Origin: a virus
Virus record (IMG/VR): IMGVR_UViG_3300028388_001127
Coordinates: 1 to 42,602 of that record
DNA length: 42,602 nt
Direction: 5' to 3' (one strand)
This document shows, in pieces, positions 1,150 to 37,929 of the stretch. The stretch's first letter is position 1. The number at the start of each line of letters is the position of its first letter. The translations under genes and the position numbers were made by a program. The notes under the pieces are model-generated. The model made no database searches. It saw only the letters and a program-made list of their open reading frames with translations, and was not told where the DNA came from.

Positions 1150-1196
1150 ATATTAAAAATTATGTTTAAATTAGTGCCATTAAAAACCGAGAGCAA
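1150..1196 (+). promoter_or_regulatory. Conserved promoter/operator/leader element, copy A
   Basis: The most diverged of five copies. An operator-like repeat (TATTAAAA, 5 bases, GTTTAAAT at 1164-1171) overlaps a -7-like box TAAATTAG (1167-1174). The leader ends TAAAAACCGAGAGCAA directly against ATG 1197. AAACCGAGAGC (1184-1194) is perfectly complementary to the candidate small RNA at 36103-36113. Confidence 0.65.
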
Positions 1197-4205: not shown

Positions 4206-4963
4206 TACTAAGTAAACCAATAATATTTTTCGACCTTGAAACAACAGGAGTAAATATTGTAAAAGATAGGATTGTGCAAATAGCAATCTTAAAAATTTCT
4301 CCAGATGGAGAGCAGGAGCAAAAAAAGACTTTGGTTAATCCTGGCATTGATATTCCAGAGGGAGCAACAGAAGTTCACGGAATTACAAACCAGATGGTTT
4401 TGGGTTCTCCAACTTTTAAGCAAATAAGTAAGAGTTTATTTGAACAAATGACAGGATGTGATATTGCAGGATATAACAGCGATGTTTTTGATGTACCACT
4501 TTTGATTGAGGAGTTTGCAAGAGTAGGCATAGAGTTTCCAGATGCAGGAGAGGAGATTAATTTTGTTGATGTTTTAAAGATAGAGAGGAGGATTAATAGC
4601 CATAAACTTACTGAAACTTATAAAAGATACACAGGAGAGGAGTTGGATGATGCACACGATGCAATGAATGATGTTATTGGAACTGCAAAAGTGTTATTTG
4701 CTCAATTAGAGAAAATGAATGATGATGATGCAAGAACAAATGATTTTACAGTTGAGGAGTTGGATTTGTTTTGCCAAGATGAGAGAAAGCGAGTAGATTA
4801 TGCAGGGAAACTTTATGAAAAGGATGGAGAGGTTTATTGGAGTTTTGGAAAGCATAAGGATTGTTTGGTTAAGGAGGAGAGGCAATATGCTGATTGGGTT
4901 TTGAGGTCAGATTTTCCAACAGATACAAAAAATAGAATTAAAAAAATATTGAGCAATGAGTAA
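4202..4963 (+). CDS. DnaQ-like 3'-5' exonuclease (DEDDh)
   Basis: 253 residues. Exo I is FFDLETTG (Asp11, Glu13), Exo II is YNSDVFD (Asp97), Exo III is AHDAMNDV (His152, Asp157): a full DEDDh set like the epsilon subunit of DNA polymerase III or phage exonucleases. The C-terminal part (FGKHKDCLVKEERQYADWVL and following) resembles the small accessory domain often fused to such exonucleases in Bacteroidetes. It removes nucleotides from 3' ends; whether it proofreads for the host polymerase or processes recombination ends is unknown, as no phage polymerase is seen. Confidence 0.9.
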   Translation: MILSKPIIFFDLETTGVNIVKDRIVQIAILKISPDGEQEQKKTLVNPGIDIPEGATEVHGITNQMVLGSPTFKQISKSLFEQMTGCDIAGYNSDVFDVPLLIEEFARVGIEFPDAGEEINFVDVLKIERRINSHKLTETYKRYTGEELDDAHDAMNDVIGTAKVLFAQLEKMNDDDARTNDFTVEELDLFCQDERKRVDYAGKLYEKDGEVYWSFGKHKDCLVKEERQYADWVLRSDFPTDTKNRIKKILSNE

Positions 4964-9714: not shown

Positions 9715-9720
9715 TTACAA

Positions 9721-9788
9721 AATAATGCTTGTGCAACTTAAACTTAAAGTTTAAATTTGACCATTGTTAATTTAAAAACCGAGAGCAA
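9721..9788 (+). promoter_or_regulatory. Conserved promoter/operator/leader element, copy B
   Basis: TTG (9729-9731), 20 bases, TAAATTTG (9752-9759). The -7 box overlaps an operator-like repeat (ACTTAAAC, 5 bases, GTTTAAAT at 9749-9756), here nested with a perfect 17-bp palindrome at 9738-9754. The leader ends TTTAAAAACCGAGAGCAA before ATG 9789. AAACCGAGAGC (9776-9786) is complementary to the candidate small RNA. Confidence 0.75.
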
Positions 9789-9998: not shown

Positions 9999-10236
9999 AA
10001 CAATAGGATTTTCAATAGATTATTATATTGGCAATAAGTTTGTTGGTTATGTAGTAATTGACAAGCCAGAAAGAGAGCAGAATGGTTATGCAGGGAGAAA
10101 GGTTGAGATTTTAAAAGAGGATGTTATATGTACCAACAAAAAAAGAATTAAGGCAGGACAGGAGGTAAAAACCGAGCAAGTGCAGATGTATGGAAAGCTA
10201 ACAAAGGATTTCAGAAAAAATGCTTTTAGCATTTAA
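9991..10236 (+). CDS. Hypothetical beta-rich protein
   Basis: ATG 9991 (MFETIGFSIDYYIGNKFVGY) is chosen over an upstream ATG at 9952 that would overlap the preceding gene by 47 bases. 81 residues, beta-like, with a Lys-rich middle (TNKKRIKAGQEVKTEQVQMYG). It overlaps the previous gene by 8 bases. Its last codons coincide with the start of leader element C, so a promoter lies inside the gene end. No family recognised. Confidence 0.6.
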   Translation: MFETIGFSIDYYIGNKFVGYVVIDKPEREQNGYAGRKVEILKEDVICTNKKRIKAGQEVKTEQVQMYGKLTKDFRKNAFSI

Positions 10237-10304
10237 AAATAATGTTTAATTTTAACCAAAATAATTATTAATCGTGCCGATGGCACATAAATACCGAGAG
10301 CAAA
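10221..10304 (+). promoter_or_regulatory. Conserved promoter/operator/leader element, copy C
   Basis: Operator-like ATTTAAAA (10231-10238), 5 bases, GTTTAATT (10244-10251), overlapping a -7-like TAATTTTA (10247-10254). The leader has a small hairpin GTGCC-GAT-GGCAC (10274-10286) and ends ACCGAGAGCAAA before ATG 10305. ACCGAGAGC (10293-10301) matches the small RNA over 9 bases. Confidence 0.65.
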
Positions 10305-19544: not shown

Positions 19545-19739
19545 ATGGCAAAGCAAAAAAGGATTGAAATTATATTAACACCCAGAGATGTAGATGTTAA
19601 ACCAACATTTGATTTGAATGCTTATGGTATGGAGAAATACGAAGTTTTGGGATTGTTAGAGTTAGCGAGTTTCCACGTTAAGCAAGTGAGTTTGCAAGAG
19701 ACAAAAGATTTACAAATTAAAGACCGAGAGAATGATTGA
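19545..19739 (+). CDS. Small hypothetical protein
   Basis: 64 residues, soluble, beta then helix (MAKQKRIEIILTPRDVDVKP; YEVLGLLELASFHVKQVSL). The middle resembles small conserved proteins beside phage tail genes, but I do not recognise it. It overlaps the ParB-like gene by 8 bases, so it is probably part of that cassette. Confidence 0.55.
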   Translation: MAKQKRIEIILTPRDVDVKPTFDLNAYGMEKYEVLGLLELASFHVKQVSLQETKDLQIKDREND

Positions 19740-34137: not shown

Positions 34138-34228
34138 ATTTTTATAACAATTCGTATTCTGGAGAAATAAAAACCTCGCAAAATGTATTTTCGGTAAAAA
34201 TAATATTTAAACTTAAATTTTAAGAAAT
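34138..34228 (+). other. Non-coding gap before leader D
   Basis: About 90 A/T-rich bases with no ORF. Notable is AAAAACCTCGCA (34169-34180), complementary to the 3' arm and tail of the hairpin at 10700-10739, and the inverted AAAAT/ATTTT pair at 34181. I see no further promoter. Confidence 0.4.
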
Positions 34229-34289
34229 AATGCTTTGTGCATTTAAACTTTATGTTTAAATTTAACCCATAATTTAATCGAGAGCAAAA
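34229..34289 (+). promoter_or_regulatory. Conserved promoter/operator/leader element, copy D
   Basis: TTTG (34234-34237), 19 bases, TAAATTTA (34257-34264). The operator-like repeat ATTTAAAC-TTTAT-GTTTAAAT (34241-34261) is perfect, 8+5+8. The leader ends TTTAATCGAGAGCAAAA before ATG 34290; only CGAGAGC (34279-34285) matches the small RNA. Confidence 0.75.
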
Positions 34290-34538
34290 ATGGAACATTC
34301 AATTTATGACGGTCTAAAATTCACCACAGGAGAAATAAACAGAAATTTCAAAATCAAAGTTCACACTACAAATAAGTATGGAAAGAACTTGAATACTTTA
34401 GTTGGAGTATCTGGATTAATTCGATTGATAGGAGTTAATATGGTCAATAAGTTTGTGCAAAGAAGTTTTAATGCGATGGATGATAGAGTTGTATGCAAAT
34501 TACGTTCTGGAGTTCGTGTTACTTTTTACTCTCACTAA
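34290..34538 (+). CDS. Small hypothetical protein under leader copy D
   Basis: 82 residues, basic and beta-like (MEHSIYDGLKFTTGEINRNF; VVCKLRSGVRVTFYSH). No motif recognised. It is the first gene after the lysis terminator and has the clearest operator of the five leader copies, so it probably belongs to an early or regulated set with the following RNase H. Confidence 0.65.
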   Translation: MEHSIYDGLKFTTGEINRNFKIKVHTTNKYGKNLNTLVGVSGLIRLIGVNMVNKFVQRSFNAMDDRVVCKLRSGVRVTFYSH

Positions 34539-36071: not shown

Positions 36072-36156
36072 TATATTTGTACCACTCCGCTAATATCCGA
36101 CCGCTCTCGGTTTATCTGCGAAACGAAGCCACTAGCAATCCTGTTAGTGGCTTTTT
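36072..36156 (+). ncRNA. Candidate antisense small RNA against the conserved leaders
   Basis: A perfect -7 box TATATTTG (36072-36079) is followed by about 70 bases without an ORF and a strong terminator. The expected RNA (from about 36084) has a hairpin CCGA-CCGCTC-TCGG (36097-36110). GCTCTCGGTTT (36103-36113) is the exact reverse complement of AAACCGAGAGC in leaders A, B and E; leaders C and D match over 9 and 7 bases. Pairing would cover the leader next to the start codon. The -33 box is weak. Alternative: an ordinary terminator with chance complementarity. Confidence 0.55.
36128..36156 (+). terminator. Rho-independent terminator
   Basis: GCCACTA (36128-36134) pairs with TAGTGGC (36145-36151), 10-base loop, then TTTTT. 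It ends the candidate small RNA and lies just before leader E. Confidence 0.85.
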
Positions 36157-36166
36157 GTTTGAATTA

Positions 36167-36230
36167 ATACTTTGTGCATTTAAAATTAATGTTTAAATTT
36201 GACCATATTAATTTTAAAAACCGAGAGCAA
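36167..36230 (+). promoter_or_regulatory. Conserved promoter/operator/leader element, copy E
   Basis: TTTG (36171-36174), 19 bases, TAAATTTG (36194-36201): a full Bacteroidetes promoter. Operator-like ATTTAAAA-TTAAT-GTTTAAAT (36178-36198). The leader ends TTTTAAAAACCGAGAGCAA before ATG 36231; AAACCGAGAGC is 36218-36228. It lies 11 bases after the small-RNA terminator. Confidence 0.8.
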
Positions 36231-36362
36231 ATGAATTACGATGATTGGAAGTTATCCAACCCTTACGATGATGAGAAAGACAATGAGTGCAGTTTTTGTG
36301 GTGTGCCTTGCGATGGGCATTTCTGTTCAAAAGAGTGCAGGATTGCGGAAATGAATGATTAA
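36231..36362 (+). CDS. Small zinc-finger protein under leader copy E
   Basis: 43 residues from ATG 36231; an in-frame ATG at 36174 lies inside the promoter and is rejected. CSFCGVPCDGHFCSKEC (about 20-36) has five cysteines in a knuckle pattern suited to zinc. Very acidic around it. It may be a small regulator or protein-binding adaptor. It precedes the Cro-like gene by 17 bases, so the two share the promoter. Confidence 0.65.
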   Translation: MNYDDWKLSNPYDDEKDNECSFCGVPCDGHFCSKECRIAEMND

Positions 36363-36379: not shown

Positions 36380-36679
36380 ATGGGAAAACCAGCGTTAAGA
36401 ATTGAGGAGGCTTTGGACTTTCACGAAAAGACCAAGGCTAAAAGTGAGCCAAGTATTTTAAAGGGAGGTTTGGCAGATGTTTTTTTTGGAGGTGCGAGTG
36501 AAAAAACAAGACCTGTAAATATGAGCAATTTGATAGGTGGCCGAACAAAGAGAGTTGACCCAGAGTGGGTGCATCATCTTTGTAAGGTTACAGGAGTAGA
36601 TGCAAACTTTTTGTTTGGAATAAAACCAATGAACCCAAAAATTTTAGATAAGTATGAGAGCGGAGCGTATAATAAATAA
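36380..36679 (+). CDS. Putative Cro/XRE-like regulator
   Basis: 99 residues. The segment VNMSNLIGGRTKRVDPEWVHHLCKVTGVDANFLFG (about 47-81) follows the pattern of short XRE-like regulators of Bacteroidetes phages (recognition helix, then a helix ending in Asn-Phe-Leu-Phe-Gly). It lies in the same transcript as leader E, so it could bind the operator-like repeats there and at the four other copies, forming a feedback loop. DNA binding is inferred, not shown. Confidence 0.6.
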   Translation: MGKPALRIEEALDFHEKTKAKSEPSILKGGLADVFFGGASEKTRPVNMSNLIGGRTKRVDPEWVHHLCKVTGVDANFLFGIKPMNPKILDKYESGAYNK

Positions 36680-36819: not shown

Positions 36820-37929
36820 ATGAGTAAAAACGAGAGTAAAAAAGCGGAGAACATTGAAGTACACGGAGCAAAAGAGATTACAGCCTTTGAGGAGATGATG
36901 GCTGAAAATCCGCAAGGAGTGTATGAGTTAGCACCTGGCTTAACATCGGAGGAGATGTTGGCGGTTTTCTTTAATTCGGATGCGTTGGTTGAGGCACCAG
37001 AGAAAATTTATAGGTTGCAAGGAACAAACCACAGGTATTATTACAAGTTTGATGAGAATGGGCAACCAGATTTCTTTACATCAGTTACCACGATGATAAA
37101 ACAAACGATGCCTACAAGTCCTCACTTGATTAAGTGGATTGCGGAGATGGGATATGATGAGAGTAGAAATTATGCACAGGAGAGAGCTGATTATGGAACT
37201 TTTATGCACACCGAGATTGCAGAGTTGTTGATTAACAGAAAGTATGATACGGAAAAGCTAAAGAGTAGATTGAAAGCATTTATTGAGGCAGAGAGTTTGC
37301 CAAGTGATTTCATAAACCACGTAGACGAGTTGAAAAAGGATATACTTGCCTTTGCTCAATTTATGATTGATTACAATGTTAAGCCATTAGCGATTGAGAT
37401 TGTATTAAGCCACCCAACAGATGGATATGCAGGAGCCATTGATTTAGTTGCTGAAATATCTGGCGAGATTTCTGGTCATTGGGGCGAGGTTTACAAGTCT
37501 GGAGCAAGAGAGGGGCAACCGAGAAAAACCACAAAGCACGTTGATGGAGTAAGATGTATAATTGATTTCAAAAGTGGTCGCAAAGGGTTTTATGAGGAAC
37601 ACGAGGTGCAGTTACAAGCCTACAATGAGATGTGGGATGCTCATTTTCCAGATAAGCCGATTGAGAAAAGGTTTAATTGGTCGCCAAAGGATTGGAGAGG
37701 TGCAAAACCTACTTATAATCTGAAAGACCAAACAGAGGCAAAGAGCGCTTATAAATTAAAGCATTTGGTTGAGTTGGCGAGAGTAGAGAAAGACAGGAGA
37801 AATGATACCGTTGTTGTTATATCTGGAGAGATTAATATTGAGAATGGTATTGATGGGAATATGCAGGAGATGACTTTGAGCGAGTTGGTTAAAAAGAGAA
37901 AGGTTGAAAAGGATAAACCAACGAAGTAA
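36820..37929 (+). CDS. PD-(D/E)XK nuclease (RecB/Cas4-like exonuclease)
   Basis: 369 residues. The core is visible: His130 in YGTFMHTEIAELL, Glu193 (AIEIVLSHP), Asp208 (YAGAIDLVAE), Asp249-x-Lys251 (IIDFKSGRKG) and QLQAY (264-268). This is the arrangement of phage RecB-family exonucleases, which resect DNA ends for recombination. The N-terminus (residues 1-60) is acidic and not conserved in my memory. A short Lys-rich tail ends it. It overlaps the next gene by 1 base. Confidence 0.85.
   Translation: MSKNESKKAENIEVHGAKEITAFEEMMAENPQGVYELAPGLTSEEMLAVFFNSDALVEAPEKIYRLQGTNHRYYYKFDENGQPDFFTSVTTMIKQTMPTSPHLIKWIAEMGYDESRNYAQERADYGTFMHTEIAELLINRKYDTEKLKSRLKAFIEAESLPSDFINHVDELKKDILAFAQFMIDYNVKPLAIEIVLSHPTDGYAGAIDLVAEISGEISGHWGEVYKSGAREGQPRKTTKHVDGVRCIIDFKSGRKGFYEEHEVQLQAYNEMWDAHFPDKPIEKRFNWSPKDWRGAKPTYNLKDQTEAKSAYKLKHLVELARVEKDRRNDTVVVISGEINIENGIDGNMQEMTLSELVKKRKVEKDKPTK

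Follow-up and report, generated by a model that had tools for sequence, protein, structure and literature searches.

A predicted trans-acting antisense RNA of Bacteroidota phages whose seed changes together with its start-codon targets

Phage antisense RNAs known to have several phage targets are rare. The RegA protein of phage T4 represses the translation of multiple early phage genes at their start regions; the regulator described here would resemble it in multi-target translational repression at starts, but it is an RNA with a seed rather than a protein. The nearest known way of working is that of the c4 RNA of phages P1 and P7, a small phage RNA whose loop segments pair with a phage mRNA at its ribosome binding site and block translation (PMC12197685). 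The present RNA is predicted to share with c4 the pairing of loop antisense segments at a phage translation start, which concerns the way of working only, while membership in the c4 family fails on the target: c4 acts on the mRNA of the antirepressor ant, whereas the targets found here are an exonuclease, an ATPase, a DnaQ-like protein, RuvC and small proteins. Further differences from c4 are its predicted nature as an independent transcript with many unlinked targets, its occurrence in Bacteroidota phages and its coordinated seed changes. The OOP RNA of lambda, sar of P22 and aQ also exert phage-encoded antisense control of phage genes (PMC12197685), but each has one main phage target (cII, ant and Q, respectively), and OOP and aQ are opposite-strand RNAs, in contrast to the putatively trans-acting RNA with short seeds and several unlinked genes considered here. 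VpdS of VP882 and PreS of lambda are phage-encoded trans-acting sRNAs as well (PMC12197685); however, both are Hfq-binding RNAs directed at host mRNAs, with VpdS acting on phage mRNAs as well, whereas the present pairing is long, near perfect and with the phage's own starts, and no chaperone was identified. A literature search, with most subscription journals and all bioRxiv preprints outside its scope, revealed no similar phage RNA and none for Bacteroidota phages.

The window, i.e. the whole analysed stretch of 42,602 bases (35% G+C) of an IMG/VR virus record, is related to Croceibacter phage P2559S (66% identity across 63% of a 4-kb query). The original prediction described a small RNA consisting of a promoter box, a non-coding stretch of about 70 bases and a terminator, perfectly complementary to leaders A, B and E, matching leaders C and D over 9 and 7 bases and carrying its seed partly in a hairpin loop. 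All of these elements were confirmed (Table 1), with the stretch that follows the TATATTTG box measuring ~ 75–80 nt, lacking an ATG start and ending in the terminator. The criterion of a discrete non-coding unit is met at the sequence level only, by the promoter box, the terminator and the absence of an open reading frame. Exact AAACCGAGAGC occurs four times (1184+, 9776+, 36218+ and 36103−), compared with 0.01 expected from dinucleotide shuffles; with up to two mismatches, there are 23 matches against 7.3 expected. The hairpin consists of an outer CGC/GCG pair, an inner CCGA/UCGG stem and a CCGCUC loop, so that the seed lies only partly within the loop. Searches with Rfam covariance models gave no match in the window at the gathering score and none for the unit of Parabacteroides phage PDS1 at E ≤ 1. 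The unit had also been placed beside a regulon member and a Cro-like gene; the former is gene E, while the gene at 36380 has no Pfam or PHROG match and the Cro-like assignment was not upheld.

Table 1 Features of the antisense unit and of its target genes in the window
Feature	Position	Strand	Basis or remark
Leader A target AAACCGAGAGC	1184..1194	+	2 nt ahead of ATG 1197
Gene A, 113 aa	1197..1538	+	resembles P2559S gp55, likewise a target
Leader B target	9776..9786	+	2 nt ahead of ATG 9789
Gene B, 69 aa	9789..9998	+	
Leader C target, 9-nt match ACCGAGAGC	10291..10301	+	3 nt ahead of ATG 10305
Gene C, 122 aa	10305..10673	+	
Leader D target, 7-nt match CGAGAGC	34275..34285	+	upstream of ATG 34290
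Gene D, 82 aa, phrog_32997	34290..34538	+	orthologues targeted in phages of classes I and II
Whole unit (promoter, hairpin and terminator)	36072-36156	+	carries inverted AAACCGAGAGC
sRNA promoter -7 box TATATTTG	36072..36079	+	sequence; Bacteroidota -7 type TAnnTTTG
Predicted sRNA, ~ 75–80 nt	36080..36158	+	predicted fold (-28.6 kcal/mol, z = -6.0); unit conserved in relatives
5' hairpin (CGC..CCGA / UCGG..GCG), presents seed	36088..36120	+	fold prediction
Antisense seed GCTCTCGGTTT / GCUCUCGGUUU, loop plus 3' arm	36103..36113	+	exact complement of leaders A, B and E
Intrinsic terminator hairpin, then T's	36125..36154	+	sequence and fold
Leader E target	36218..36228	+	2 nt ahead of ATG 36231
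Gene E, 43 aa, Cys-containing, phrog_35839	36231..36362	+	adjoins sRNA 3' side in class I phages
Shared 44-bp promoter regions of leaders B, C, D and E	9719-9762, 10214-10257, 34224-34267, 36161-36204		

Among all 8-mers of the window, ACCGAGAG is the third most start-enriched. Duplex prediction against the starts, which had been proposed as a check, did not single out the leaders: by RNAduplex energy they rank third to sixth, near the 1% control quantile, and duplex energy as the sole discriminator was rejected since it fails to separate them from other starts. For the exonuclease gene, which is the principal target elsewhere, the window offers no more than a weak site, at 36827. One copy of ACCGAGAG (19723-19732) ends 1 nt upstream of ATG 19732 and is a possible sixth, weaker target. 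In addition, leaders B–E have in common a similar 44-bp promoter region (77–100% alike) ending in TTTAAATTTGACC or similar; thus, this regulon seems to be co-ordinated at transcription too.

According to their seeds, we refer to the window and P2559S group as class I, to the TCUEAP2, PDS1 and AS73P1 group as class II, and to a gut and rumen group as class III. In P2559S, the unit is conserved (~ 66% nucleotide identity) just upstream of the gene E homologue, CCGAGAGC stands perfectly preserved directly ahead of six starts, and the inverse GCTCTCGG is present only once in the genome, within the RNA. A unit at the same place was also identified in L252/L273, L254/L274, L255/G003 and L330. Class I units hardly vary in the box, the seed and the hairpin core, and the terminator is altered in sequence with its pairing kept; the TAnnTTTG box is retained ahead of the RNA in all relatives shown. 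Flavobacterium phage 1/32 possesses a gene E homologue but neither the motif nor the RNA.

The neighbouring exonuclease gene served as an anchor for finding units beyond the class I clade. Comparable units on the strand opposite to the genes (minus) were found in Elizabethkingia phage TCUEAP2, Parabacteroides phages PDS1 and PD491P1, Alistipes phage AS73P1, Bacteroides phages C1_85S2P and BKO1-3, and contigs L284, L287 and L289. The class II unit runs CCGCAUAACC, a loop ending in AUCGCUCUC, GGUUACUGCG and a terminator, with a deviating stem in L284. In PDS1 and AS73P1, start codons are preceded, overlapped or closely followed by GAGAGCGA or AGAGCGATG, and the exonuclease start of PDS1 reads ATGAGAGCGAAC; in TCUEAP2, GAGAGCGA lies upstream of gene D and of the ATPase gene, and only ~ 3 targets were seen. 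The RNA 5' end is predicted, in the absence of transcript data, just after TATATTTG (or TAATTTTG) in P2559S and PDS1. Two PDS1 annotations deserve mention here. The annotated start of PDS1_11 overlaps the opposite-strand sRNA (L258 4430-4483), and the true start may be located further downstream (ATGagaataaaaGAGAGCGA near 4616); the DNA polymerase, annotated from 14318, may start at L258 14276, with an ATG running into the target motif.

Class III was found by a descriptor scan that was blind to the seed sequence. It comprises ~ 26 gut and rumen phage contigs with the unit order GUC-UUUU-UACC, loop (A)UCGUAUCGCC, GGUA-UUUU-GAC and terminator; the loop is CGUAUCGCC, and the targets at exonuclease starts are GGCGATACG. 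Every class III contig with a readable exonuclease start has a complement of at least 7 bases there, e.g. GGCGATACGATG. A first co-occurrence count (Fisher p = 1e-6) contained eight false negatives, later corrected, with tblastn matches starting right next to the start codon. In L294, L318 and L329, an inverted repeat AGGGAA...TTCCCT upstream of the class III RNA promoter extends across the promoter spacer and is probably an operator controlling the sRNA itself.

Relatives with an altered leader motif but an unaltered RNA seed would have refuted the original prediction; in the relatives examined, both change together. L314 and L333 combine the loop CAUAUCGCCUGUAU with exonuclease leaders of the sequence ATACAGGCGATATG, giving 14 perfect pairs and including a G-C to A-T double change that is seen at several leaders; G005, the full contig of L333, contains nine GCGATATG sites at starts. 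The RNA of L312 (UCGUAUCGCUU) pairs with the leader AAGCGATACGA, and L293 represents another variant with three leaders. Position by position, 6–7 core pairs are preserved in almost every one of 26 phages, and one position is changed on both sides. The mean longest complement is higher with the leaders of the own class than with those of another class (7.3 versus 6.1–6.6 for class II, 9.5 versus 5.6–8.6 for class III, 14 versus 5.6–7.1 for III' and 11 versus 6.2–8.6 for IIIb), and in the leader-by-RNA matrix the diagonal is highest for every class. Seed/target coevolution, one of the membership criteria, is therefore met and demonstrated in these genomes. Phages within one class are related, so the counts are not independent, and the enrichment statistics are not corrected for phylogenetic dependence. 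The 5' stem of class III is nearly invariant and gives no covariation support of its own, and homology of the hairpins of different classes is not proven. The co-change supports the claim of a trans-acting antisense RNA on several phage genes; its function remains an inference, since no transcript has been shown.

With gene D as an anchor for further seed classes, two candidates were obtained, with fewer members and weaker statistics: L412/L416 (L412 9199 and L416 8933; seed GUUGUUAAAAGUGAAUA, leaders TATTCACTTTTAA and TTTTAACAACA) and L427 (6897-6985; seed UUUGGUUAACUG, leaders CAGTTAACCAAA and similar at 4–5 starts). L428 (7175), in which one leader has an 18-nt complement to its own unit, is a candidate class as well. 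A scan of 43 units gave a modest excess over reversed controls. For the three well-sampled seed classes, their sub-variants and the candidate classes alike, the best pairing is with the leaders of the same class or variant. For the loops of L282/L334 and L279, no complementary starts were found. Several searches were discarded: the antisense unit of L421 is merely its own leader read in reverse, viral contig pattern scans with the 14-mer ACCGCTCTCGGTTT or the 16-base CTCTCGGTNTATCTGC gave mostly unrelated matches, and a scan of genome contigs with CGCTCTCGGTTACTGCG gave 21 matches, approximately the chance level, of which L342, the only one inspected, was unlike the unit. The covariance models R1 and R2 found nothing in 295 genomes of the order of L342 under strict filters and without a positive control, which makes this only a weak negative.

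A further question is whether the motif could act as DNA, as the operator of a phage repressor or activator, with the complementarity reflecting one protein site in two orientations. A coevolving DNA-binding protein would likewise alter the motif everywhere together, and the 44-bp promoter region that class I leaders B–E share lies just upstream of the motif. The sites at starts, however, number 69 in the sense and 1 in the antisense orientation. Many of the targets begin 0–20 nt past the previous gene or overlap it, which leaves no room for a promoter, and the register follows the AUG, including sites that overlap it or lie within the first codons (ATGAGAGCGAA). The inverted copy, in turn, invariably forms part of a hairpin, in its loop or an arm, and a terminator follows immediately. 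The sense bias, the tight gene spacing and the AUG register together favour pairing with mRNA, and we regard an operator as unlikely.

In 6/18 genomes or contigs (P2559S, L330, L273, G003, G005/L333 and AS73P1), no 8-mer is more start-enriched than the seed complement, with 6/7 copies at starts in P2559S (p ~ 1e-9.6) and 9/11 in G005. It ranks second in PDS1 and is below the top rank in TCUEAP2 and most class III full contigs, and most of the latter have just 2–4 clear targets. The further membership criterion, a seed complementary to several unlinked mRNAs, is met by five leaders in the window, six perfect ones in P2559S and nine in G005, and this complementarity is an observation. Different seeds are directed at orthologous targets, namely, the exonuclease, an SMC/RecN-like AAA ATPase and a DnaQ-like protein (classes II and III), a RuvC-like resolvase (I and IIIb), and gene D, phrog_32997 (I and II); additional targets are a DnaD-like helicase loader (P2559S) and a MazG-annotated protein (PDS1). 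Some of these orthologies are based solely on N-terminal sequence and annotation.

We therefore consider, with a probability of roughly 85%, that this is a phage trans-acting antisense RNA acting at the start codons of a DNA-metabolism regulon; that it represses its targets is held with somewhat less confidence, in the absence of transcript or functional data. As inferred from sequence, the RNA would have a host-type promoter and a terminator of its own. Its 5' hairpin is predicted to display a seed of 9–14 nt in the loop or 3' arm, and pairing with several phage mRNAs just before, over or just after the AUG would follow, a step supported by coevolution. The mRNAs of Bacteroidota have no Shine-Dalgarno sequences, and their start regions show reduced pairing; those of Flavobacterium johnsoniae have no SD and low structure (PMC6847099). 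A duplex over the start region should thus be repressive, most likely by blocking 30S loading, as the ribosomes of Bacteroidota seldom rely on Shine-Dalgarno pairing and prefer start regions that are open; repression itself is an inference. Given a regulon made up mainly of genes for DNA recombination and replication, the most likely role of the RNA is to switch off or restrain early DNA-metabolism proteins in infection, with the timing likewise inferred. Alternatively, the RNA could be an activator that, for instance, stabilises the 5' end of the mRNA or recruits ribosomes; the class I leaders are short, and at some sites, located a few bases ahead of the AUG, pairing could shield the mRNA 5' end, but class II and III pairing often spans the AUG (GCGATACGATGG with CCAUCGUAUCGC, 12 bp) and should block initiation, which makes activation very improbable. 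That the RNA is a target mimic (sponge) or acts mainly on host mRNAs, the leader matches being a side effect, can practically be set aside: phage sponges such as AgvB exist (PMC12197685), but the RNA is complementary to the leaders and does not resemble them, and in several genomes no start motif is better enriched than the leader sites.

The observation behind the predicted antisense RNA is real and larger than originally reported, while timing and a possible immunity role remain open. The rewiring of up to ~ 10 targets together would be hard to explain if the RNA only regulated the phage's own genes. It is conceivable, although rather doubtful at present, that the system doubles as RNA-based superinfection immunity and that seed-swapping RNAs are widespread in Bacteroidota phages, every phage lineage altering its loop along with the full set of targets. 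If so, the RNA would silence the early genes of phages with the same seed and not of others, and immunity types would be set by an RNA, not by a repressor. The seed, regulon and pairing register are predicted in the cultured phages P2559S, PDS1, TCUEAP2 and AS73P1 and are directly testable there. The antisense RNA would represent a mode of translational control fitting hosts that do without Shine-Dalgarno pairing, and it provides an uncommon natural series, with several instances of an RNA seed rewired jointly with its entire regulon.
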